DNA from: Candidatus Helarchaeota archaeon
GTDB taxonomy: Archaea; Asgardarchaeota; Lokiarchaeia; Helarchaeales; JABXJV01
NCBI GenBank assembly: GCA_013375355.1
Contig: JABXJV010000284.1
Location: 1-11,975 of the forward strand
Direction of reading: 5' to 3'
DNA length: 11,975 nucleotides
The number at the start of each line of letters is the position of its first letter. Within the stretch, counting starts at the first letter, position 1. Shown piece by piece: positions 42 through 10,432 of the stretch. Made by a program: the position numbers and the translations under genes. The notes under the pieces are model-generated. The model saw only the letters and a list, made by a program, of their open reading frames with translations. It was not told the origin of the DNA and ran no database searches.

Positions 42-65
42 ACTGCTTGATAGTTGATTAAAGTC

Positions 66-305
66 ATGGGTAACTTGGAAAAATTCTTGGAGTATATCTC
101 TGAAGTATTTGAAATAGATCAATCAGAAATATCTGATGAGTTAACGCCAGACGATATCGAGGTCTGGGACTCAATTAGCCACATGGATCTAATGGCTAAA
201 TTCGAGGAAGAGTGGGAAGTTACATTTGATGTTGAGGAATTAACAGAAATGGAAACAATCGGTCTTATAAAGAAAGCCTTGATTCGTCATGGAGTTAAAT
301 TATGA
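66..305 (+). CDS. Acyl carrier protein (phosphopantetheine-binding)
   Basis: This is a small acidic carrier protein of 79 residues from ATG 66, the usual length for a discrete ACP. It should carry an acyl group as a thioester on a 4'-phosphopantetheine arm. The attachment site is visible as WDSISHM, with the modified serine at residue 36 of this start, the same place as in bacterial AcpP. An in-frame TTG at 54 would add four residues. I prefer ATG 66 because of the Ser36 spacing and a possible TATA box placed for a leaderless start. The stop overlaps the ATG of the acyl ligase by 4 nt (ATGA), so the two are translationally coupled and the ligase probably loads this carrier. Free-standing ACPs are unusual in archaea, which generally lack type II fatty acid synthesis. 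The family call is firm; the acyl cargo is unknown. Confidence 0.9.
   Translation: MGNLEKFLEYISEVFEIDQSEISDELTPDDIEVWDSISHMDLMAKFEEEWEVTFDVEELTEMETIGLIKKALIRHGVKL
291..294 (+). promoter_or_regulatory. Shine-Dalgarno site of the acyl ligase gene
   Basis: GGAG lies 7 nt before the ATG at 302, inside the end of the ACP gene. With the ATGA overlap it supports translational coupling and fixes the ligase start. Confidence 0.6.
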
Positions 306-1813
306 ATTTAACACAAGAACTTTTTAAAGATTCACATAAATTAGATAAAATCGCCTTTTTTCATAGAGATGAGACTATCTCCTATCCAGATCTATATGCT
401 AAAATTTGCACTGTTATAGAAGAACTTAAAAAGCAAGGGTGTAAGAAGGGAGAAAAAATCGCTATTTTTGCAAATAATTCAATTTTTACAGTCATCGCGT
501 ATTTTGGGATTATTGGAAATGGAATTGTTGCAATTCCTCTTTATCCAAGAATTTCAGAAGAACATTTGAATTATATTATTAAGGGCTGTGAAATAAAAAC
601 GCTCTTTATACAAAATAAACTTCTCAAACGCTTTGAAGAACGATGTAAAGTTAAGATGAAAAATTATTTTATTGATGCTGAAAGTGAATTTGGAATAAAT
701 ATAAATGCTTTACCAAAAAAAGAAATAAAATTTCCAGAAATTGATGAAAAAAAGGAAACCGCTGTAATAGTGTTTACATCCGGATCCACTGGAGTTCCTA
801 AAGGGGTGATGGTGTCTCATCATAACGTTAATTATAATGCAGATTCAATAATTGAATATTTAAAACTCACTGAAAAAGATAGATTTATGGAAGTATTGCC
901 TTTTTCTTATTGTTATGGAACATCATGGCTCCATACGCATATGAAAGTAGGTGGACAATTAGTTATTAATAATCGCTTTATGTTTCCAGGAAAGGTATTG
1001 GATGAAATAAATGAAAAAGAATGTACGGGATTTGGAGGAGTGCCTGCACATTATCAAATTTTATTGAGAAGATCAAATATACATAAAAGAAAATTTCCTT
1101 CATTGAGGTATTTTGCTCAAGCAGGAGGCAAATTAGCAGTTCCTTTTATTAAAGAATTAATGGAACTTTTCCCAAATAAACAAATTTTTATTATGTACGG
1201 TCAAACAGAAGCTACTGCTCGGCTTTCTTATTTGCCACCAGATTTATTGGAAAAAAAATTAGGGTCAATTGGTAAAGGTATTCCTAGAGTTACTCTTGAA
1301 GTATTAAAAAAAGATGGATCTCCGATAAAACCTGGTGAAGTCGGTGAAATTGTGGCAGAAGGTGGTAATATAATGCAAGGATATTGGAATGATCCCGAAG
1401 GTACAAAAAAGACACTTAAAGAAGGGAAATTATATACGGGAGATCTTGCAACAATTGATGAGGAAGGCTTTCTTTTTCTAGTTGATCGAGAAAAAAATAT
1501 AATTAAGAGTGGTGGATATCGAGTTTCACCTCAAGAAATTGAAAATGTAATCTTTCAAATCCCAAATGTTGTTGAAGCAGCAGTTATTGGAGTACCGGAT
1601 GAAATTTTGGGAGAAGCAATTAAAGCGTTTGTTGTGACTATTAAAGACGCTAAAAGTTTAATAGATAAAGATTATATTGTAAAATATTGCAGAAAGCAAT
1701 TACCATCTCATAAAATCCCAAGATATGTGGAATTTATAAGGAATTTACCAAAAAGTAGTTCAAATAAAGTAATGTATGAAGTTTTAAAGAAACAGGAAAG
1801 GGAGAAAAAATGA
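302..1813 (+). CDS. AMP-forming acyl ligase (ANL superfamily), probable acyl-ACP synthetase
   Basis: A 503-residue adenylate-forming enzyme of normal family length. Visible core motifs are the phosphate loop FTSGSTGVPKG (158-168), YGQTEA (299-304), YTGD (378-381), the hinge region around D396-REK, and GGYRVSPQEIE (404-414). The C-terminal lysine in the SSSNK stretch (K489) fits the catalytic lysine. The family makes an acyl-AMP from a carboxylic acid and ATP, then passes the acyl group to a thiol. The substrate stretch (LPFSYCYGTSWLHTH, 199-213) looks like acyl-CoA synthetases and lacks the Asp that binds an alpha-amino group, so a plain carboxylic acid is more likely than an amino acid; this is inference. 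It overlaps both neighbours by 4 nt. The adjacent carrier gene makes ACP the likely acceptor, although CoA cannot be excluded. Confidence 0.9.
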   Translation: MNLTQELFKDSHKLDKIAFFHRDETISYPDLYAKICTVIEELKKQGCKKGEKIAIFANNSIFTVIAYFGIIGNGIVAIPLYPRISEEHLNYIIKGCEIKTLFIQNKLLKRFEERCKVKMKNYFIDAESEFGININALPKKEIKFPEIDEKKETAVIVFTSGSTGVPKGVMVSHHNVNYNADSIIEYLKLTEKDRFMEVLPFSYCYGTSWLHTHMKVGGQLVINNRFMFPGKVLDEINEKECTGFGGVPAHYQILLRRSNIHKRKFPSLRYFAQAGGKLAVPFIKELMELFPNKQIFIMYGQTEATARLSYLPPDLLEKKLGSIGKGIPRVTLEVLKKDGSPIKPGEVGEIVAEGGNIMQGYWNDPEGTKKTLKEGKLYTGDLATIDEEGFLFLVDREKNIIKSGGYRVSPQEIENVIFQIPNVVEAAVIGVPDEILGEAIKAFVVTIKDAKSLIDKDYIVKYCRKQLPSHKIPRYVEFIRNLPKSSSNKVMYEVLKKQEREKK

Positions 1814-2889
1814 TAAAAAAGAATGTAATGATCCCCCATATTTACTATGTAAATGAACTTTTTATGGGAAAAGGGGCACTGTCAACTTTAAAATATTTAG
1901 GAGAAGAAAAATTTTTAATTTTCGTTTCCAAAACCGTGAAGGGTTTGGAGAATTACCAAAAGATAGAGAAATATTTGGATGGTAAAACTTATACCGAAGA
2001 AATTATAGAAGATTGCTTAGAAAAAAAGATATTAGAATTTAGAAATAAATACAAAGATTATAATCCTGATGTTGTTGTCGCTATCGGAGGAGGTAAGGTT
2101 ATAGATTCTGCAAAAATTGTAAAATTTTTAATAGAGAATCCCGATCATGATTTAGAAACGCTTAAAAAAGAGTATTTTAATTTTAATAAGAAAATCAAGC
2201 TCGTTGCTGTCCCGACTACTCCTTCGACAGGTTCTGAATCTAATTCTACTGCATTGACAAAAACAGAACAAAATGAAAAAATTGCATATATAAATCGTTC
2301 TTTCATCCCCGATATGGCAATTTTAGACTATGCTTTTTTGGAATCGATTCCATTGGATAAACTTATTCCGATGACAGGGGATATATTTGGGCACTCTTTT
2401 GAAGCTTTTTTCTCCAAATTAAGTAAACAACTAATTATAATATATGCAAAATCTAGTATGAAATTTTTAAAAAAAGGCATTCTAGGACTTAAAAAGAATA
2501 AAGAGGATAAAAAAAGTCTTGAAAGTATCATGGTTGCAGGACATGTTGGTGGAATTGCTGCAGGAAATGCATTTGTAGGTGCTTGTCATGCCCTTGCTCA
2601 TGCGGCAGAAATAAAAATTAACAAGGGACATAGTAGCCTAATTATGAACTTAATTAAACCAACCCTTACTTGGCATCAGAAAAAAACAGAAAATCCAGAT
2701 TATGAACAATTCATAAATGCTTATAATGAGATAGGATACGACTCTTATTTGGAACCAGGGATTTTCGACGCTTTAGATAATAACTGGTGGGCAGAAACTG
2801 CTCTTAAAGATCCCGCTGTTAAAACAAATCCTATTAGAATGAAATTGGAATCTATGCTGGAGTTGGTCAATTGGATCAAGACCAAATAA
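1810..2889 (+). CDS. Iron-type (group III) alcohol dehydrogenase
   Basis: A 359-residue member of the Fe-ADH family (PF00465 type), which interconverts aldehydes and alcohols with NAD(P)H. The dinucleotide motif is AIGGGKVIDSAK (91-102), followed by PTTPSTGSESN (135-145). By alignment from memory with E. coli FucO, the metal ligands are intact: D191 and H195 (GDIFGHSFEAF), H260 (GACH) and H274 (NKGHSS), with H264 at the catalytic His position. The 14-residue spacing of H260 and H274 matches the family. The start overlaps the ligase stop by 4 nt and follows GGAG at 1801-1804 with a 5-nt gap. In context it should reduce the aldehyde made by the LuxC homologue to an alcohol, or run in reverse. 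Substrate and cofactor preference cannot be read from the sequence. Confidence 0.9.
   Translation: MIKKNVMIPHIYYVNELFMGKGALSTLKYLGEEKFLIFVSKTVKGLENYQKIEKYLDGKTYTEEIIEDCLEKKILEFRNKYKDYNPDVVVAIGGGKVIDSAKIVKFLIENPDHDLETLKKEYFNFNKKIKLVAVPTTPSTGSESNSTALTKTEQNEKIAYINRSFIPDMAILDYAFLESIPLDKLIPMTGDIFGHSFEAFFSKLSKQLIIIYAKSSMKFLKKGILGLKKNKEDKKSLESIMVAGHVGGIAAGNAFVGACHALAHAAEIKINKGHSSLIMNLIKPTLTWHQKKTENPDYEQFINAYNEIGYDSYLEPGIFDALDNNWWAETALKDPAVKTNPIRMKLESMLELVNWIKTK
2859..2862 (+). promoter_or_regulatory. Shine-Dalgarno site that decides the luxE TTG start
   Basis: GGAG lies 8 nt before TTG 2871 within the end of the dehydrogenase gene. The next in-frame Met is at about residue 72, far inside the conserved protein, so the TTG is the only sensible start. 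The result is a 19-nt overlap between the two genes. Confidence 0.6.
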
Positions 2890-3986
2890 TTAAGGAAATA
2901 ATAACAGCTAATCAATATAATCTTGCTCAAAAAGAGAAAGAAGCTAAATTACTTCCTATTTTTAAAGAACAAATAAAAACACAAATTGAGAGTTTAAATA
3001 ATTTAAAATCTTTTTATAATAAATTTAATGTAAATATTGATGATATAAATTCATTAAATGAGTTACCACCTATTCCTGTAAACATGTTTAAAAAATTTGA
3101 TTTGAGAACATGTAAAAAAGAAGATGTATTAAGGGTTTTACACTCCAGTTCCACAACAACCGGAATTCCAAGTAAAATATATATTGATAAAAAAACTGCC
3201 TTTCGTCAAACTCGTTCCTTCCTTTCTACAATTAAGAATTTTATTGGAAAAGAAAGAAGACCATTATTAATTATAGATACGGAAGAAGTCGATAAGGCTA
3301 AAACGGATACATTAACCGCAAGAGGTGCTGCAATTCGGGCAATAACTAACTTTGCAACTAAAAAAACTTATGTAATGGATCTAAAAAATGGAGATCTCGA
3401 TGTAAATTTCGATAGACTCAAAGAATTTTGCAATAATTTCGAAGGACAAGATATAATAGTCTATGGTTTTACTTATATCATTTGGAGTCGATTTTATAAA
3501 ATTTTAAAAGAAAAAAATCTTCAATTAAATTTTCCAAATATTAAAATTCTTCATAGTGGTGGTTGGAAAAAATTAATTGAACAACAAGTTGATAAAAGAA
3601 CATTCAATTCTGAAATCGCTAGCATTTTTAATACAAGTCCAAAAAATGTCATTGATTATTACGGAATGGTTGAACAAGTAGGGGTTGTTTTTGTTGATTG
3701 TGAGGAAGGCTGGAAGCATGTTCCTGATTTTGCAGAAGTTATAATAAGAGATTTCTATACCATGAGTGAAAATGAGCCAAAAAATCCTGGGTTAATCGAA
3801 ATTTTGAGTATATTACCAACAAGTTATCCAGGACAAGCTTTATTAACGGAAGATGTTGGTGAAATTATTGGTATAGATGATTGTCCATGCGGAAGAAAAG
3901 GGAAATATTTTACTTTTAGATCTAGAGTGCAAAAAGTAGAATTACGAGGGTGTGGAGATACTTTTGCTGAAAGGAGGGGAGATTGA
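2871..3986 (+). CDS. luxE: LuxE-family acyl-protein synthetase
   Basis: A 371-residue protein, very close to bacterial LuxE length. LuxE activates an acid with ATP, becomes acylated on a cysteine and passes the acyl group to LuxC. Visible features are the phosphate-binding loop HSSSTTTGIPSK (91-102), YYGMVEQ (263-269), TEDVGE (326-331), CPCGRKG (338-344), and a C-terminal RGCGDT with Cys361. Vibrio LuxE is acylated on a cysteine in the same C-terminal position (Cys364), so the acyl-enzyme route looks intact. It is followed directly by a LuxC homologue (TTGA overlap), the standard partner. Because an ACP and a separate ligase are encoded upstream, this protein may take acyl groups from acyl-ACP rather than from free acid; that is inference. 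PaaK/CapK-type ligases are the nearest alternative, but the C-terminal RGCGDT favours LuxE. Confidence 0.9.
   Translation: MDQDQIIKEIITANQYNLAQKEKEAKLLPIFKEQIKTQIESLNNLKSFYNKFNVNIDDINSLNELPPIPVNMFKKFDLRTCKKEDVLRVLHSSSTTTGIPSKIYIDKKTAFRQTRSFLSTIKNFIGKERRPLLIIDTEEVDKAKTDTLTARGAAIRAITNFATKKTYVMDLKNGDLDVNFDRLKEFCNNFEGQDIIVYGFTYIIWSRFYKILKEKNLQLNFPNIKILHSGGWKKLIEQQVDKRTFNSEIASIFNTSPKNVIDYYGMVEQVGVVFVDCEEGWKHVPDFAEVIIRDFYTMSENEPKNPGLIEILSILPTSYPGQALLTEDVGEIIGIDDCPCGRKGKYFTFRSRVQKVELRGCGDTFAERRGD
3972..3977 (+). promoter_or_regulatory. Strong Shine-Dalgarno site that decides the luxC TTG start
   Basis: AGGAGG lies 5 nt before TTG 3983, the strongest ribosome site in the window. It supports the TTG start and the 4-nt TTGA overlap with luxE. 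Confidence 0.75.
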
Positions 3987-5284
3987 TTATTCAAGTTTTG
4001 TTCTTTAAAAATAAAATTTACAAATTAAATGAAAAAACTGTTAGCGATTTAAAAGAAATTAAGTCTGAAATTGAAAAGAGCAGGGAAATTTTTAAAAGTA
4101 TCACTATTGAAAAAATTATTGACCTTTTTCACCAATTTGGTAGAGAATTACTCCATAATAAGGAATTTATATCATTTGAAGGGGTTCCCTTTCTCTCTAA
4201 TTGGCTTAGGAAAGGTAATATTGAAAAAATTGTAATTAAGAATTTAGGTTCTTTTAAAGTTTTGAAAGATTTTATTGGTGAAGGGCGGAAAAAGGTAAAG
4301 GCTCAACCGAGGGGTGTTATTTGCCACTGGATTGCTGGAAATGTCCCTACTTTAGGATTTTTTTCATTAATTCAGTCTATTTTAGTTGGAAATTCAAATA
4401 TAGTTAAAATCCCTCCTGAAAGTCAATTCATTTTCCTTGAATTAATTAAATTATTTGGAAAAACTGAAATAGAAGGTCTAAAAGGTTCTGATATTTTAAA
4501 AACGGTAGCAGTTATTGATTTTTCACCCTCAGACACAAAATCCAACTTAAATTTTTCATTAACTGCTGATGCGAGAGTAATCTGGGGGGGTCAAGAAGCA
4601 GTAGATGCTATTTCAAAAACAAGCAAAATGAGTCATTGCGATGATATTGTTTTTGGTCCAAAGTATTCTTTTGGTATAGTGGATAAAAAGGCACAGGAAT
4701 CTGAAGAGTTTCCTAAATTAATCCGCCGATTCGTTAATGATATTATAATTTTTGATCAAAGTGCATGCTCTTCACCCCAAGTAATCTTTTTTGAAAAAGG
4801 GCCACTAGATTTAGAATCAATTGGAAAATTCTTTGAAGATGAATTTAAATTAGCTTCAAAACGCTTCCCAAAAAATGGGATTGATCAATTTATTGCATCA
4901 AAAATAATTAATATTAGAGCAGAATACGCTCTTGCTCCAGAAAAAAAGGTAATTGCTTCTAAAGAAAACGATTGGACAATACTGATGGATGATAATATTA
5001 GATTAGAGGAACCAGTCCAATCACGAACTATTTTTTTAAAAGAAGTAGACTCTGTCATGGACTGTGTTGACTTAATTACTCCAAGAATTCAAACTATCGG
5101 CACTGCTATTTATAATAGAAATAAATTATTAGAGTTTACTGATGCCGTGACATACAAAGGAGTGGCAAGATGCGTTTTACCAGGTCAAATGAATTTTTAT
5201 GATTCTCCTTGGGATGGGATCTATTTTTTAAATAGATTAGTAAGATGGGTAACTTTATATATGCCAGCTGATGAAAAATTATAA
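3983..5284 (+). CDS. luxC: LuxC-family acyl reductase
   Basis: A 433-residue LuxC homologue (LuxC is usually about 480 residues), which reduces an enzyme-bound or thioester acyl group to an aldehyde with NADPH. Recognisable blocks are VICHWIAGNVPTLG (112-125), WGGQEAVDA (201-209), HCDDIVFGPKYSFG (218-231), the active-site segment FDQSACSSPQ with nucleophile Cys262, TIGTAIY (371-377), and the C-terminal VARCVLPGQMNFYDSPWDG (394-412). The start is the TTG at 3983, set by AGGAGG and a 4-nt overlap with luxE. Together with luxE it forms the core of a fatty-acid-reductase complex. The thioesterase LuxD and the luciferase subunits are absent here. The aldehyde should feed the iron alcohol dehydrogenase encoded upstream. 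The family call is very secure; chain length and physiological product are unknown. Confidence 0.93.
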   Translation: MIIQVLFFKNKIYKLNEKTVSDLKEIKSEIEKSREIFKSITIEKIIDLFHQFGRELLHNKEFISFEGVPFLSNWLRKGNIEKIVIKNLGSFKVLKDFIGEGRKKVKAQPRGVICHWIAGNVPTLGFFSLIQSILVGNSNIVKIPPESQFIFLELIKLFGKTEIEGLKGSDILKTVAVIDFSPSDTKSNLNFSLTADARVIWGGQEAVDAISKTSKMSHCDDIVFGPKYSFGIVDKKAQESEEFPKLIRRFVNDIIIFDQSACSSPQVIFFEKGPLDLESIGKFFEDEFKLASKRFPKNGIDQFIASKIINIRAEYALAPEKKVIASKENDWTILMDDNIRLEEPVQSRTIFLKEVDSVMDCVDLITPRIQTIGTAIYNRNKLLEFTDAVTYKGVARCVLPGQMNFYDSPWDGIYFLNRLVRWVTLYMPADEKL

Positions 5285-5291
5285 CACAATA

Positions 5292-5297
5292 AGGGGA
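5292..5297 (+). promoter_or_regulatory. Shine-Dalgarno site pointing to an ATA start
   Basis: The AGGGGA-like element lies 8 nt before ATA 5306, the same spacing as the luxE site. It follows an in-frame stop region and sits just after luxC. The first conventional start codon in the open frame is a TTG more than 200 nt downstream. Confidence 0.45.
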
Positions 5298-5305
5298 TTT
5301 AATTT

Positions 5306-6124
5306 ATATCAATTTCTAACTCAATCGGAAATCATTGGAAGATTGTTCTTTATAGCACAATATTTAACTTTTTATTTGAATATGCAGTTCGTGGTTTCGA
5401 TAACATATTAGAAATTCCCATACTGCTTTTTGGTATTATTGGTATATATTTCACCTATTTTATTTTATTAGAAGATCTAATTGTAAGGTTTAGACTTAAG
5501 GATTATGAGCTCTTCTTGATCGCATTTTTTTACTGTCTTATTGGGATGGTGCTTAATTCAGGCTATATATTTTGGGAGCCAGGTCCATTCCAACAAAATT
5601 ACTTAATTTTTGGAGTTAATTATTTGATAGTCATTTTTGTAGGTATTTTTTGGTGGTCTGAATTTCAAACTGTTCTTACTTTTTACTTTGCAAATAGAAT
5701 TTCAACAAGAGATTGGGATCAACCATTTCTTGGTAGAAAAGGATGGATATTAACCTTATCTATAAATGGTTTATTGCTTTCATTATTTTTTCTAAGTGGA
5801 AAGATAATTTACGGGACAATAGAGGGTTATATTTCAATGTTTATAATTTGGGTTGTATTTGGAATTCTTTGTTATATAATGTTAAAGAATAAAGATCGTA
5901 ATGAACAGCCAAAATTTGAATCTTCAAAAATTTTAGACATTATAATGATATCTACTATAATTTTATCGATTTTTTGCGCTACTTTTCTTATTTATGACCC
6001 CGTTATTATTGGGGCGTCTCATGTTAATAGTCTTGCAATAAGAATTACAATACTTTGGGCCTGGACGTTTGGTATTTTTGTAATTTTTTTTCGTATTCTA
6101 TTAAAAAAACCAATTTCGGTATGA
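5306..6124 (+). CDS. Multi-pass membrane protein, last gene of the acyl-reductase operon
   Basis: The frame is open from the stop at 5300-5302 to 6124. A start at ATA 5306 gives 272 residues; the first ordinary start, TTG 5516, gives 202 and would cut into hydrophobic segments. Residues 1-70 of the long form read as protein, with hydrophobic stretches such as IPILLFGIIGIYFTYFILL, so I take the upstream part as coding. About seven membrane segments are visible, with short charged loops including FANRISTRDWDQPF and a basic end (LLKKPISV). I do not recognise the family. The gene begins 21 nt after the luxC stop and so is probably co-transcribed. It may transport or use the alcohol or aldehyde in the membrane, but no motif shows this. 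The start is uncertain: a rare ATA start or a sequencing error at an ATG are both possible. Confidence 0.65.
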   Translation: MSISNSIGNHWKIVLYSTIFNFLFEYAVRGFDNILEIPILLFGIIGIYFTYFILLEDLIVRFRLKDYELFLIAFFYCLIGMVLNSGYIFWEPGPFQQNYLIFGVNYLIVIFVGIFWWSEFQTVLTFYFANRISTRDWDQPFLGRKGWILTLSINGLLLSLFFLSGKIIYGTIEGYISMFIIWVVFGILCYIMLKNKDRNEQPKFESSKILDIIMISTIILSIFCATFLIYDPVIIGASHVNSLAIRITILWAWTFGIFVIFFRILLKKPISV

Positions 6125-6146: not shown

Positions 6147-6977
6147 TTAGGTTTTAAGACGTCTAAAATAGTCCAATATAGATAGATTATCTATATCACC
6201 TGATAAGCATACTATTGTTTCTTCCTTATCTTTTTTGTAAAATTTTGAAAATGCTTCTTTTAAGGATAAAATCATAAAATTCTTTTTTTTATTAATAATT
6301 TTAATAAACCCCTCCAAAATTTCGACATATTTAACTTGTCCCATTCTAATTGGATGCAGATCATAAACTAAGACTCCAGTTCTACCATAATCTAAAGCTT
6401 CAACAAAGTGTCTTAAGATGACATTATTATTATTTAGTCCAAGATTATCTATAAGAACATCATCTGACACACCAATCAAAGGGAGTGTAATCACTCCCGA
6501 TTTATGTTTAATGGGATGTGGAGGTTCTTTCCATGGTGGTTTTTGGATATTTATTGAAGTGTCATATAATATTCCTAACTTTTTCTCATATTCAAAAAAT
6601 AAATCAGAATTTTTCTCAATTCGGGTAATTCCATAAGGAGCCCTAAAAATCCAAGGATTTTGATTAAATTTTTTAAAAACTGAAATTGCTTCTCTCATAT
6701 CCTTAAAAGCTGCCTTTCTTCCTATTAGAGAATAATCTGGATGAGTATGTCCATGTGGACCATAATCATGATCGCCAAAATGTGAAAAAAAGGTTGGTTG
6801 ATTTTCAATTAAATAAGTAGAAATAAAATAAGTCATTTTAACGTCATATTTTTCAAAAATTCGATTCATTCTCGCTATTAAACTAACCATATTTGCAGAA
6901 AATAAACTCAAATAATTAGAAATCTTCTTGATTAATACAGGAATTTTATTTTTATATGTTAGGATTCTTCTAAACAA
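6147..6977 (-). CDS. NodB-type polysaccharide deacetylase homologue, unusual N-terminus
   Basis: A 276-residue protein from TTG 6977, which is the only common start before the upstream stop. NodB-fold enzymes remove N- or O-acetyl groups from glycans with a metal held by an Asp and two His. Seen here are GPHGHTHPD (73-81) with H75 and H79 in the HxxxH arrangement, FRAPYG (111-116), LYDTS (137-141) and LVYDLHP (203-209). The usual first motif (TFDD) is missing from the N-terminus, which instead starts with a basic stretch and enters the helix before KMTYF (47-51). The C-terminus carries a strand ending in SGDIDN (259-264), which resembles the missing motif. No signal peptide is apparent, so it probably acts in the cytoplasm or at the inner membrane face. 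It is convergent with the acyl-reductase operon, separated by 22 nt, and need not be functionally linked to it. Confidence 0.75.
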   Translation of the reverse strand: MFRRILTYKNKIPVLIKKISNYLSLFSANMVSLIARMNRIFEKYDVKMTYFISTYLIENQPTFFSHFGDHDYGPHGHTHPDYSLIGRKAAFKDMREAISVFKKFNQNPWIFRAPYGITRIEKNSDLFFEYEKKLGILYDTSINIQKPPWKEPPHPIKHKSGVITLPLIGVSDDVLIDNLGLNNNNVILRHFVEALDYGRTGVLVYDLHPIRMGQVKYVEILEGFIKIINKKKNFMILSLKEAFSKFYKKDKEETIVCLSGDIDNLSILDYFRRLKT

Positions 6978-7127: not shown

Positions 7128-8759
7128 ATGTGTCTTGGAATGGAAAGTCTAAAATACCTAAAATTTGAGCCAAGGGAGTATCAATCCATATCTGCAAAGG
7201 AAGCTTTAGATGAAATAGAAAAGGGGAAAAGACTTATAATTATACTTCTCCCAACGGGCACTGGAAAAACAAAAGTAGGGGAATTGATAATTACTGAATA
7301 TATATTAAAAGGAAAACTAAAAAAACAAGATAAGATTCTATTTTTGGCTCCAGATAGGAAAATGAAACATCAACTTTATGAAGTTGCAAATGAAGATGGA
7401 CTTTCACACTTTGGAAATTTATTTATATTTCCTGAAGGAAAAACAGTTCCTCCAAAAATGATAAGAAAACATTTTAAATTTTCAAAATTCATTTTTTCTA
7501 CTCCCGAACTTTTATTTAATGCTGTATTTCCGAGAAATCCGCGCATGAGAAAAGTTGAACTTGAAGATATGAAAAAAATTAAACTCGTAATTATTGATGA
7601 GATCTTAGAGGTTCTCGCACAAAAATTTGGAAAAGAGAAATTTCGGGTTAATTTAAGATTTAGACCTCTTCTAGAAATATTAGGTGTATTTGATCCTAAT
7701 TCAACGAATGTATTTGTAGGATTAACTGCTACAATAAGTCAATTTAAAAAACGAGAGATATTGATTGATTTATTTGGAGGGAAAGAAAAGGCTGCGGAGG
7801 TAAAACCTACTCAAACTGAAGATTATAAAGAACATGCACCCGCAATTATTGTAAAAAAATTCTATGCTTTTGATGATTTTGTAAAAGGTATTGATGTTTT
7901 ATTCATGAGTTTGAATTCTAGGTGTTTAAGTATTTTACGACAAGCCCATCGAATTCTTACAGGTTCTCCTTTAGAAGGCGACCGCACTTTATTATTTGCC
8001 AATGAAATGTTAAAAAAACAAGATGTAGTAAAAGAACATTTTATAAAACGAAAACGAGGCGAATTATTTGAAAGGGCAAGGGGATACGCAGGAGCATATT
8101 TAGATTTAGTAGTTGCAAGGCAGATGTTGTTCGAACATGGACTTCCAACTTTATATAAATTCATCCATTCAGTTAAGAATTCAATACTTTTAAAGTCTGA
8201 TGAATGGAATGATATCATTGAGCAGTTGCAAATTAGGTGGGAAAGCCCTGACGGCATAATCACTAAAAAAGAAGAAAGATTAATTGAACTACTAAAGCGG
8301 AAAGTCATTAAAGAAAAAAAACGTGGGATTGTATTTTGCAGATTTGTTCTAATGACTAAGAACCTTTACCGTCTTGCTGAAGCAGTAAATATAAAATCTA
8401 CTTTCATTCATGGAAAAATGGAAGGTGTAAGTCAGAATAGTCGAATTAATCAATTCAAAAATGGTGAAGTAGACGTTTTATTTGCATCAAAAAAATTGAT
8501 TGAACGTGGAACCGATATTCCCCAGGCAGATTTCGCAATTCATTATGGAACGACAATGTCCGCCTCACGGAGGGAACAAAGTATGGGAAGAATTAGATCT
8601 ACTATGAAAAATTTGAAAGAAGATATTACAATTCTCTACCACGAAACCGCGGAACAATCTAAATTTTCAAAATTAATTGAAGATTTTATGCAGAATGTGG
8701 AAAAGGTTAAGGTCGAAGGCTGGACTATTTTTAAAGATGGAGAAATTTCGGAAAAATAA
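7128..8759 (+). CDS. SF2 DNA helicase/translocase, XPB (RAD25)-like, with DEIL Walker B
   Basis: A 543-residue two-domain ATPase. The first RecA-like domain shows an entry motif REYQ (16-19), Walker A LPTGTGKT (41-48), Walker B VIIDEIL (154-160) and motif III GLTATIS (198-204). The second shows IVFCRF (401-406), FASKKLIERGTDIPQAD (452-468) and motif VI REQSMGRIRS (482-491). A basic region of about 150 residues (250-400) sits between the domains. Motif III and the RREQSMGRIRS block look most like XPB and related ResIII-type helicases; a Hef/FANCM relation is the other option, but no ERCC4 nuclease domain follows. Position 160 is Leu where DEAH/DEVH proteins have His, the residue that couples ATP use to strand movement. 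A second ATG at 7140 (residue 5) is an alternative start. The stop directly abuts a remnant of psmA on the other strand. Confidence 0.8.
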   Translation: MCLGMESLKYLKFEPREYQSISAKEALDEIEKGKRLIIILLPTGTGKTKVGELIITEYILKGKLKKQDKILFLAPDRKMKHQLYEVANEDGLSHFGNLFIFPEGKTVPPKMIRKHFKFSKFIFSTPELLFNAVFPRNPRMRKVELEDMKKIKLVIIDEILEVLAQKFGKEKFRVNLRFRPLLEILGVFDPNSTNVFVGLTATISQFKKREILIDLFGGKEKAAEVKPTQTEDYKEHAPAIIVKKFYAFDDFVKGIDVLFMSLNSRCLSILRQAHRILTGSPLEGDRTLLFANEMLKKQDVVKEHFIKRKRGELFERARGYAGAYLDLVVARQMLFEHGLPTLYKFIHSVKNSILLKSDEWNDIIEQLQIRWESPDGIITKKEERLIELLKRKVIKEKKRGIVFCRFVLMTKNLYRLAEAVNIKSTFIHGKMEGVSQNSRINQFKNGEVDVLFASKKLIERGTDIPQADFAIHYGTTMSASRREQSMGRIRSTMKNLKEDITILYHETAEQSKFSKLIEDFMQNVEKVKVEGWTIFKDGEISEK

Positions 8760-8954
8760 TTAAGGAACTTTCTTTATATATTCTTCTTTCTCTTCTTTTG
8801 AGAATATTCTAAAAATTTTCTCATCTGTTCTTATAACTCCAACATCGGTATGATCTGGCACAAATTCTTTAGAGATTACCTTTTTTAAAGCGGAAAGGGC
8901 AAGAATTATGGTCTCTTCTATACTCATCTTTTCTTTGTATTCTTTCTCTAAAAA
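8701..8954. repeat. Direct repeat, left copy (helicase 3' end plus psmA 3' end)
   Basis: This stretch matches 9657-9910 at a constant offset of 956 nt without gaps. By hand count there are about 40 mismatches in 254 positions, so roughly 84% identity. It spans the last 19 codons of the helicase gene and 64 codons plus stop of a psmA-like sequence on the other strand. Similarity stops at about 8956, where an in-frame stop breaks the psmA remnant, and fades to the left of 8701. Confidence 0.85.
8760..8954 (-). pseudogene. Truncated proteasome alpha subunit remnant (C-terminal 64 codons)
   Basis: The minus strand encodes 64 residues, from FLEKEYKEKM to a C-terminal KKVP, matching the C-terminus of the intact PsmA encoded downstream at 55 of 64 positions by eye. 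The codon before the Phe is TAG (8955-8957), where the intact gene has GAG, and no coding sequence for the first three quarters of PsmA is present. Within the remnant there are no stops or indels, and many of the base differences from the intact gene are silent. This implies the sequence spent time under protein-level selection, in a paralogue or in a related strain, before it was truncated. An internal ATG (8925-8927) could give a 55-residue peptide, but nothing suggests it is used. Confidence 0.85.
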
Positions 8955-8957
8955 CTA

Positions 8958-9126
8958 TAATGAAGAATGTATGGAATTTCATAATTGCTTTGGATTGGAA
9001 TATTAATTAATTAATTTTGTTCTCTTATATTTGCGCATTCTAAATGGCTCTAAAGACTTAAATGTGATAGATTATTTTTTGTTAAATAGATGTCTAGTCT
9101 TCTTTTTAATAAAATTAAATTATTAA
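8958..9126. other. A+T-rich spacer between psmA remnant and TPR gene
   Basis: About 170 nt with no gene-like frame. It includes a run of TTAA/AATT near 9000-9018 and a TATA-like GTTAAATAGA at 9081-9090, about 36 nt before the TPR start. I see no inverted repeats, transposase fragment or similarity to the other sequences in the window. Confidence 0.4.
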
Positions 9127-9684
9127 ATGTGTGTAATAAAAATGAGCTATAGTGAAGATGATTGGGATTGGGATGAAGATGGGAATACGAGTACTGGTTG
9201 GGTTCATAAGGGAAATTATTATAATAAAATAGGGAGACGTCGTGAAGCTATTAAATGTTATAAAAAAGCTATTGGGTTAGATCCTAAAAATAATGTCCCA
9301 TGGAATAATATGGGACTTACATATGGCCGTTTAGGTGATCGTGAGAATGCTCTTGAATGTTATAAAAAAGCTATTGAATTAGATCCTAAAGATAACACTC
9401 CTTGGATAAATATGGGTTGTTATAAAAAAGCGGTCGAAGTAAATCCTAAGGATTCTAACGCTTGGTCTTTATTGGGAGGTACTTTTTGGAAAAAAGGAAA
9501 TTATGAGGAGGCAATAAAATGCTATAAAAAAGCGGTTGAAGTAAATCCTAAGGATTCTAACGCTTGGTCGTATTTGGGAGAACTTTATGAAGAAATTGGT
9601 GAAAGTAGTGAAGCTACTCAATGTGTTTTAAAAGCAAGAGCTATACGTTCTTCTAAAAAATTAAAAGTTGGAAGGTTGGACTAA
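9127..9684 (+). CDS. TPR-repeat protein
   Basis: A 185-residue protein built mainly of tetratricopeptide repeats, helical-hairpin units that bind other proteins. After an acidic, Trp-rich leader (SYSEDDWDWDEDG, 7-19) come about five units with period 34, marked by CYKKA-(I/V)-(E/G)-(L/V)-(D/N)-PK at each end. The third unit lacks about 13 residues between INMG (residue 98) and CYKKA (99). The gene lies between the two copies of the 254-bp direct repeat, and its last nine codons read into the helicase-tail stub in another frame, stopping at TAA 9682-9684. It was therefore probably brought in with, or cut by, the rearrangement, and its true C-terminus may have been lost. Start options are ATG 9127 and ATG 9142. 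The partner is unknown. Confidence 0.8.
   Translation: MCVIKMSYSEDDWDWDEDGNTSTGWVHKGNYYNKIGRRREAIKCYKKAIGLDPKNNVPWNNMGLTYGRLGDRENALECYKKAIELDPKDNTPWINMGCYKKAVEVNPKDSNAWSLLGGTFWKKGNYEEAIKCYKKAVEVNPKDSNAWSYLGELYEEIGESSEATQCVLKARAIRSSKKLKVGRLD
9421..9569 (+). repeat. Near-identical 47-nt repeat inside the TPR gene
   Basis: Positions 9421-9467 and 9523-9569 differ at one base in 47 and are 102 nt (34 codons) apart, exactly one TPR unit. The close match points to recent unit duplication or gene conversion. Confidence 0.85.
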
Positions 9685-9910
9685 ATTTAAAGGTGGAGAA
9701 ATTTCAAAAAAATAATTAATGTATTTTCTTCATGTAGGCTTCTTTCTCATCTCCTGAAAATATTCTAAAAACTTTTTCATCTGTTCTAATGACTCCAACA
9801 TCGGTATGATCTGGAGCAAATTCCTTAGAAATTACTTTTTTTAAAGCAGTTAGTGCAAGAATTATTGTCTCTTCAATACTCATCTTTTCTTTATATTCTT
9901 TCTCTAGAAA
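9657..9910. repeat. Direct repeat, right copy (helicase 3' stub plus psmA 3' end)
   Basis: This is the partner of 8701-8954. On the plus strand it still encodes the helicase tail in frame (KLEGWTKFKGGEISKK then TAA at 9713-9715), close to the intact helicase end KVEGWTIFKDGEISEK. No further helicase sequence lies upstream; the TPR gene is there instead. The right part is the 3' end of the intact psmA. Confidence 0.85.
9666..9715 (+). pseudogene. Stub of a second helicase C-terminus
   Basis: Sixteen codons reading KLEGWTKFKGGEISKK and a stop match the last residues of the helicase gene at 8759 in 12 of 16 positions. The stub overlaps the end of the TPR gene in another frame and has no body. 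It is a leftover of the duplicated junction, not a gene. Confidence 0.75.
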
Positions 9911-10432
9911 CTCTCTAGCTGTTGGAGCACCTAAACCTATGGCTTGCGCACTGTATTTATTAAAAGCACCTGATGGTGCGGTCATATATAGTTCTGCTTT
10001 AGAATCAACACCAACTCCTGCAATAAGCATGGCGACGCCAAAAGGTCTTACTCCTGCATTCATGGTATATAATTGTTTTAGATTACAAACTCGTCTTACA
10101 AGCATTTTAACATCTATTGGTTCATCATAATTAAGACGGTTAATCTGAGCTTGCACTCGTGCGTGTTCTATTAAAACTTGAGCATCTGCAGTCAAACCTG
10201 CTATTACGCAACCAATATGTTCGTCAATTTTAAAAATTTTCTCAACTTTTTCTGAGATTTGTAAAGATTTTAATCTTTTTTCCGCAACTAGAGCTGCACC
10301 TTCTGCACTTTGAACTCCAATTGCTATTGTCCCTTGCTTTATGGCCTCTGAGGCATATTCTACTTGGAATAAACGACCTTCAGGTGAAAAAATAGTGATT
10401 GCTTGATCGTAGGTGGCTTCGTGTGGCTGCAA
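9716..10432 (-). CDS. psmA: 20S proteasome alpha subunit
   Basis: The alpha-type ring subunit of the archaeal 20S proteasome, which forms the outer gated rings around the proteolytic beta rings. The N-terminal family signature YDQAITIFSPEGRLFQVEYA is complete, with the gate residues Tyr, Asp, Pro and Tyr all present; the usual YDR reads YDQ. The lysine in the VEKI block matches T. acidophilum Lys66, which contacts the HbYX tail of activating ATPases. I start at TTG 10432, giving 238 residues and Tyr8-Asp9 as in T. acidophilum, with GGAG at 10447-10444 on the minus strand 11 nt upstream. TTG 10441 (three residues longer) is the alternative but sits only 2 nt from that site. The stop abuts the helicase-tail stub with no gap. 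The beta subunit and PAN are not in the window. Confidence 0.93.
   Translation of the reverse strand: MQPHEATYDQAITIFSPEGRLFQVEYASEAIKQGTIAIGVQSAEGAALVAEKRLKSLQISEKVEKIFKIDEHIGCVIAGLTADAQVLIEHARVQAQINRLNYDEPIDVKMLVRRVCNLKQLYTMNAGVRPFGVAMLIAGVGVDSKAELYMTAPSGAFNKYSAQAIGLGAPTAREFLEKEYKEKMSIEETIILALTALKKVISKEFAPDHTDVGVIRTDEKVFRIFSGDEKEAYMKKIH

Follow-up and report, generated by a model that had tools for sequence, protein, structure and literature searches.

An acyl carrier protein-linked LuxE-LuxC operon in Helarchaeota and its possible use in surface-glycan modification

We analyzed contig JABXJV010000284.1 of a Candidatus Helarchaeota archaeon, whose entire 11,975 bases form the window discussed here. 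Open reading frame (ORF) listing and Pfam searches place five overlapping genes at 54-5284, encoding an acyl carrier protein (ACP), an AMP-forming acyl ligase (LIG), an iron-containing alcohol dehydrogenase (Fe-ADH), LuxE, and LuxC. This operon is confirmed as real, with the key residues of all five proteins present. It represents a genuine archaeal variant of a known, uncharacterised bacterial ACP-ligase-LuxE-LuxC cassette, with Fe-ADH in the place of a short-chain dehydrogenase/reductase (SDR) and, usually, its own phosphopantetheinyl transferase (PPTase). We narrowly favor the view that this private ACP and acid-reduction module supplies an acyl or hydroxyacyl group for the modification of a surface glycan or glycolipid. 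The direct observations are the gene content, the residues in place, natural gene fusions, the presence of just one ACP and one PPTase in the nearest genome (G001; G and L numbers are our handles for genomes and loci), and conserved neighboring genes.

Operon layout, key residues, and archaeal origin

The initial annotation described six tightly packed genes; five of these do overlap, by 4, 4, 19, and 4 nt in succession, while the sixth, encoding a membrane protein, is not packed with them. The operon genes, from a Pfam scan that took in ten window proteins, are as follows:

54..305, + strand: ACP (PF00550, 3.7e-05; TTG at 54, with ATG at 66 the likelier start)
302..1813, + strand: AMP-forming acyl ligase, LIG (PF00501, 1.4e-73; C-terminal domain PF13193, 1e-19)
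1810..2889, + strand: iron-containing alcohol dehydrogenase, Fe-ADH (PF00465, 4e-31)
2871..3986, + strand: LuxE acyl-protein synthetase (PF04443, 3.1e-63; PDB 7xc6_E, 3e-20)
3983..5284, + strand: LuxC acyl-thioester reductase (PF05893, 1.1e-74; PDB 7xc6_A, 4.2e-21)

Residue checks, alignment to solved structures, and conservation across Asgard archaea all agree with the earlier claim of intact active-site motifs in the five proteins. The ACP, whose homologues start at positions matching the ATG at 66, carries Ser40 within a WDSIS motif, and this serine is kept in all seven Asgard cassette ACPs. LIG, for which the best NCBIfam model is ligase_PEP_1 with a score under its cut-off, has both motif residues Lys167 and Lys489. 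Fe-ADH contains Asp191, His195, His264, and His274, the first three of which align with the solved AdhE domain 3zdr; His274 sits two columns away from the matching His of that structure, and all four ligand positions, His274 included, are kept in 8/8 aligned Asgard copies. The C-terminal Cys361 of LuxE and Cys262 of LuxC each align with the corresponding cysteine of the solved LuxC-LuxE complex 7xc6. We take the residues listed here to be catalytic or metal-binding.

The window contig is archaeal, since one of its genes specifies a proteasome alpha subunit of archaeal type (NCBIfam NF003075, cut-off 219, score 304.9 bits) and a near-identical operon lies at locus L015 on a 1,484,684-base contig of the nearest genome, Candidatus Helarchaeota archaeon LW55_61 (G001). 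Identity between the two loci is 87-94% (tblastn) over the operon and the membrane gene, and 93% for LuxC. Bacterial contamination, which the initial annotation named among the findings that would overturn its reading, was thus considered and ruled out, and the assignment to an archaeal genome stands. Among the best 120 of 787 LuxC matches, the best named relatives come from many Asgard lineages, followed by Clostridium and one Auribacterota. The LuxC carriers in this list include the cultured Asgards Prometheoarchaeum syntrophicum and Lokiarchaeum ossiferum.

Two further genes adjoin the operon in the window:

5303..6124 (listed ORF 5516-6124), + strand: membrane protein (no Pfam match)
6147..6977, - strand: polysaccharide deacetylase flanking the operon (PF01522, 8.7e-09)

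The membrane protein had been counted as part of the set, a claim that did not survive comparison, as among the cassettes compared it is seen only in the window and at L015. It was absent from the other Asgard cassettes (L027, L028, and L062-L065, where only ORFs were compared) and from 11/11 Clostridium loci, and on these comparisons it is not a conserved cassette member. The L015 protein used as query retrieved 25 proteins, including itself and the window copy, some of them from Nanoarchaeota, Theionarchaea, and Anaerolineae, and a Pfam scan of the window protein and one relative gave no match. The annotated start of the window gene appears doubtful: its frame is open from about 5303 and the first ATG, GTG, or TTG occurs only at 5516, while the L015 gene begins with an ATG 20 nt past LuxC, a start codon not conserved in the window. 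The deacetylase may be a possible partner of the operon; no deacetylase of this type turned up at the other six lux-type loci of Asgards. The genes further downstream encode, in order, a helicase, a TPR-repeat protein (9127-9684), and the proteasome subunit. L015 is otherwise syntenic here but contains no match to the TPR-repeat gene.

Distribution, gene fusions, and the predicted reaction line

A LuxE of at least 54% identity was found in 7/227 Asgard genomes, with weaker matches only in 36 more, and all seven genomes encode ACP, LIG, Fe-ADH, LuxE, and LuxC together. The gene-order comparison proposed in the initial annotation recovered the same five genes at all seven Asgard loci: six of the seven loci share the order of the window, Fe-ADH and LuxE are fused at L027, and at L065 ACP and LIG lie after LuxC on the opposite strand. 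A MaoC hydratase accompanies the cassette at four loci (L015, L027, L064, and L065) and a PPTase at six, four of these PPTases scoring under Pfam's curated cut-off. In an additional genome, G015, an ACP-LIG pair is joined by a weak, sub-cut-off PPTase but not by the reductases; the genes around it encode two cytidylyltransferases, a GNAT protein, and a capsule-synthesis protein.

The L015 locus extends beyond the edge of the window, and there MaoC is the next gene upstream of ACP, with a PPTase (PF01648, 1.7e-16) and a hexapeptide acyltransferase divergent to it. A genome-wide Pfam search of G001 found one PP-binding domain and one PPTase, both at L015. The earlier proposals that the operon has its own ACP and that a PPTase should be sought in the same genome are both borne out in this close relative.

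Natural fusions link the enzymes to each other. Using the LuxE part of the L027 fusion as query and a length window of about 404-1284 aa, we retrieved 102 LuxE-region matches, which a hand count by Pfam divided into LuxE+LuxC (62), AMP-ligase+LuxE (13), FeADH+LuxE (4, query included), ligase+LuxE+LuxC (1), and LuxE alone (22). The fusions among ligase, Fe-ADH, LuxE, and LuxC support the action of these enzymes in one pathway. The carboxylate-to-alcohol line put forward in the initial annotation is therefore well supported as a prediction from gene content (five proteins by Pfam) and fusions. The Fe-ADH-LuxE protein of L027 (10293-12497) is 734 aa long, and such a fusion also occurs in a Hermodarchaeota contig.

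In the proposed scheme, the PPTase adjoining the cassette would make holo-ACP, and LIG, the probable loader of ACP judging from its sequence, would adenylate a carboxylic acid and load it onto the carrier. MaoC, where present, could hydrate or dehydrate the acyl chain. LuxE would then hand the carboxyl group as a thioester to LuxC for reduction to the aldehyde, which Fe-ADH would reduce to the alcohol. Most likely, an LpxD-, QdtC-, or WbbJ-like hexapeptide acyltransferase would use the acyl, hydroxyacyl, or alcohol product on a sugar of a surface glycan or glycolipid. The reaction order, the loading step, and the acceptor are what we infer here from the observed gene set.

The archaeal setting emphasized in the initial annotation holds for the window, but archaea are not alone in having the gene set: it is shared by Clostridium, and more distant cassettes with a similar layout occur in bacterial glycan islands. 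The closest named sequences outside Asgards belong to an ACP-LIG-LuxE-LuxC(-MaoC) operon of Clostridium (LuxC 41-45%, LuxE 53-59%, and LIG 51-54% identity) which, unlike the window operon, has no Fe-ADH and lies among different neighbors. ACP, LIG, LuxE, and LuxC were present at 11 Clostridium loci and MaoC at 5/11, with no PPTase or acyltransferase found beside the cassette with the queries used; our searches of the open literature found no function for this operon.

The LuxC tree suggested earlier has 78 rows, 39 of them unlabelled, and combines 20 loci with some of the 120 listed proteins; it places Asgards on one side with one change needed and a support of 76. A concatenated LIG-LuxE-LuxC tree of 22 rows likewise puts Asgards on one side (69/57, one change) and Clostridium in one clade (98/97). 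The trees thus give weak support for an Asgard grouping and do not fix the direction of transfer between Asgards and Clostridium. The presence of the cassette in several Asgard lineages makes a recent single gain by Helarchaeota less likely.

Several Asgard genomes also hold a second, divergent LuxE-LuxC pair (L030, G001:C8, about 7263-10115 of the locus, and L004-L010) with LuxC frames of about 550-590 aa and local identities of 22-32%; no ACP, ligase, or Fe-ADH relative was found among the divergent loci compared.

Sugar acyltransferases and the use of the product

Hexapeptide acyltransferases adjoin the cassette at 5/7 Asgard loci, representing 3/5 genera. The L015 gene is WbbJ-like, and L028, L062, and L063, all from one genus, have a QdtC- or VioB-like gene directly before ACP, each of these scoring under the NCBIfam cut-off. 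At L064, an LpxD homologue starts about 60 nt past LuxC; its best PDB matches are LpxD, and it passes the subfamily model PRK00892 (236.8 bits against a cut-off of 207) but misses the equivalog TIGR01853 lipid_A_lpxD (217.1 against 242.5). Control searches gave 11-42 hexapeptide matches per genome, at most about 7 per Mb with repeats within one gene counted apart, so that the chance of at least 3/5 genera would be 0.003 at 0.07 per 10 kb and 0.022 at 0.14 (20 kb), figures that are only rough because the neighbor was chosen after being seen. A glycosyltransferase, epimerase, DUF354 gene, or sugar acyltransferase is found near several Asgard loci: DUF354 genes at L028, L062, and L063, a glycosyltransferase near L062, and an epimerase near L028, with a member of the same cluster in L063. 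Together with the parallels in bacterial glycan islands, these acyltransferases strengthen the surface-glycan link that the initial annotation had listed as one option. Sugar modification is in our view the best-supported use of the module, over lipid-alcohol and fermentative alternatives, a preference we hold with about even confidence.

Several observations weigh against this use. Enzyme activity is so far only predicted from sequence, and three of five genera is a small count for a neighbor picked post hoc. Searches with three queries detected no hexapeptide acyltransferase at L027 or L065, nor at the 11 Clostridium loci. Neighbors at L027 are CotH and VTC genes and those at L065 a RIO-type kinase and transporters, neither set with a glycan signature, and the deacetylase is the sole glycan-type gene among those scanned in the window. 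Clostridium cassettes are without Fe-ADH (one locus has a 23%-identical Fe-ADH about 7 kb away), and their neighbors do not resemble glycan genes, with a sigma-54 activator cluster at 11/11 loci and an HpaB-family cluster at 8/11, Pfam identities here being taken from L016 and L018 only. The HpaB-family gene possibly encodes a 4-hydroxybutyryl-CoA dehydratase. Finally, three bacterial SDR plasmid copies of the cassette are distant from the window, with identities of 22-25% for LuxC, 30% for LIG, and 36-38% for LuxE.

These Clostridium neighborhoods, some of which also include CoA-transferase genes and a histidine-degradation cluster, would be compatible with a fermentative redox valve, with a short acid converted by the operon to an alcohol as an electron sink, as would the relationship of Fe-ADH to AdhE. 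We regard such a role as rather improbable: ATP-dependent activation with a dedicated ACP and PPTase would be costly for bulk fermentation, the cassette is patchily present across the Asgard genomes, and in three genera it is adjoined by sugar acyltransferases.

Another candidate use, which we judge unlikely, is fatty-alcohol synthesis for membrane or storage lipids, in which the long-chain product would go into ether lipids or wax-like esters. LuxC and LuxE of luminous bacteria act on long-chain acids, and the enzyme order from acid through acyl-ACP and aldehyde to alcohol fits. Acyl-CoA dehydrogenases in 11/11 genomes indicate an acyl-CoA pool. Precedents include Myxococcus xanthus ElbD, an ether-lipid enzyme in which reductase, ligase, ACP, and acyltransferase domains are combined (part of PMC9131029), straight-chain fatty alcohols in Pyrococcus furiosus (a title cited in PMC3533463), and plsY and plsC genes cited for Asgard metagenomes (an excerpt of PMC13400652). 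Set against these, PlsX was found in 0/11 genomes and PlsY in 1/11 (G099), in a search limited to these two proteins; no alkyl-glycerol or wax synthase occurs among the scanned neighbors, and the acyltransferases adjoining cassettes are of sugar type. A feed for PlsX/PlsY phospholipid synthesis in G001 was set aside, as neither protein had a match in that genome.

The ketosynthase searches bear on the same alternative. PF00109 gave no full-length match in G001, G023, G044, or G161 and nothing at all in G044 and G161, short segments only in G001, G023, and G193, and long matches in G159 and G099. The G001 matches are just three stretches, each about 50 residues long, within frames of 388-510 aa. 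With no full-length condensing enzyme found, the ACP of this genome has no recognisable type II fatty acid synthase to serve; this statement is limited to G001 and does not extend to G159 and G099.

A line running backwards, with alcohols or aldehydes oxidised to acids entering beta-oxidation, seems very improbable. Fe-ADHs are reversible and the same genomes hold many acyl-CoA dehydrogenases (15 matches in G001), but LuxE and LIG spend ATP activating acids, which indicates the reduction direction, and ACP is not known as a carrier of beta-oxidation. An aldehyde supply for luciferase was ruled out, as the scan of ten proteins from the window showed neither LuxAB nor LuxD. The earlier description "without luciferase" is accurate for the operon and not for the genomes at large, as luciferase-superfamily proteins (PF00296) occur elsewhere in 5/7 operon-bearing genomes, G001 included, compared to 10/14 control genomes.

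Known systems and other Asgard ACP modules

The bacterial flagellin-glycan and exopolysaccharide (EPS) cassette provides the nearest known parallel for sugar modification. Its copy on a Deinococcus NW-56 plasmid shares ACP, AMP ligase, LuxE, and LuxC in the order of the window, but has a FabG-type SDR between ACP and ligase, whereas the window has no such SDR and carries Fe-ADH between ligase and LuxE; Asgard cassettes, in an archaeal host, also often add MaoC and their own PPTase. We opened five of 35 plasmid records with a LuxE match. The Deinococcus cassette (ACP-SDR-AMP ligase-LuxE-LuxC-acetyltransferase) follows glycosyltransferases in an EPS cluster, and rearranged versions occur in Ponticoccus (ACP-SDR-ligase-LuxE, with LuxC nearby on the other strand) and Rhizobium (LuxE-LuxC with aminotransferase, acyltransferase, and ligase). 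A Chloroflexota plasmid has LuxE-LuxC alone, and a Priestia plasmid has LuxE, a carrier protein, and a ligase with no LuxC annotated. Aeromonas group II flagellin islands have been described with ACP, 3-oxoacyl-ACP reductase, AMP synthetase, luxE, and luxC before a glycosyltransferase, for which a "liposugar" was suggested (a portion of PMC7874193), and the same suggestion accompanies a similar cassette in Enterobacteriaceae flagellin islands (section 9 of PMC4875605). The A. piscicola AH-3 glycan includes an unidentified 102-Da group (same portion of PMC7874193), for which a link to the cassette would be hypothetical.

Other reductase systems share parts of the operon. The Lux fatty acid reductase (7xc6) has homologous LuxC and LuxE with aligned key cysteines; compared to the LuxC-LuxE-LuxD set of luminous bacteria, the window operon adds ACP, ligase, and Fe-ADH, and neither the LuxD thioesterase nor the LuxAB of that system was among the ten proteins scanned. 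Myxococcus ElbD likewise joins ligase, ACP, and reductase functions, but does so in one protein with FAR1-like reductase and AGPAT-like domains (part of PMC9131029), neither of which is in the window operon. The adenylation and carrier parts of carboxylic acid reductase (A-T-R) are matched by the separate LIG and ACP, whereas its SDR-type reductase domain PF07993 is not in the operon, where LuxC would reduce instead.

A profile of the cassette ACPs detected one ACP each in 41/227 Asgard genomes, eight of them LIG-type (the seven cassette genomes and G015). The Pfam model picks up further ACP domains in G099 and G024, where they belong to long synthase frames. At L073 (G024:C1:860000-879000) and G099:C301, very long frames contain ketosynthase, tandem ACP, and PPTase domains, and resemble a polyunsaturated fatty acid or polyketide synthase. 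We compared ACP loci from 30 of the 41 genomes with 1.5-kb flanks, 22 of them not LIG-type, and all 22 of the latter (L086 and L088-L108) have an FkbH homologue beside ACP, the FkbH domain being confirmed for three. A hexapeptide acyltransferase is present at 18 of these loci and a deacetylase related to that of the window at 15 (24-30% identity). FkbH proteins have been proposed to make glyceryl-ACP (a passage of PMC7489565), and the Asgard FkbH-ACP modules are probably a glyceryl-ACP system in archaea.

Within family f28, the cassette of G193 is of the LIG-LuxE-LuxC type and the loci examined from 15 other members are of FkbH type, a pattern suggesting that loading modules have been exchanged around a shared core of ACP and acyltransferase. 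Tentatively, and as a possibility we would not put foremost, Asgards may practice a sugar acylation with one ACP per genome, in which a core of ACP and hexapeptide acyltransferase is served by swappable FkbH or ligase-LuxE-LuxC-FeADH loaders. In at least one lineage, that of G193, the acyltransferase is LpxD-like, and an archaeon without a recognised fatty acid synthase might then use acyl-ACP to make an N-acylated sugar, much as in a step of lipid A synthesis.

Asgards are the closest archaeal relatives of eukaryotes. A search of the open literature, with few subscription journals and no preprints, found no paper joining LuxC, LuxE, and Asgard, and the available text of PMC9385802 has nothing on an Asgard acyl carrier protein. 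According to a passage of PMC3533463, most archaea lack ACP and the machinery that processes it, and the product of bacterial LuxE-LuxC glycan cassettes is left open in the relevant parts of PMC7874193 and PMC4875605. An ACP, a PPTase, and an acid-reduction line in several Asgard lineages would show acyl modification without a fatty acid synthase. The Asgard enzymes also form a defined set for testing, through which the function of the bacterial LuxE-LuxC glycan cassettes could be approached.

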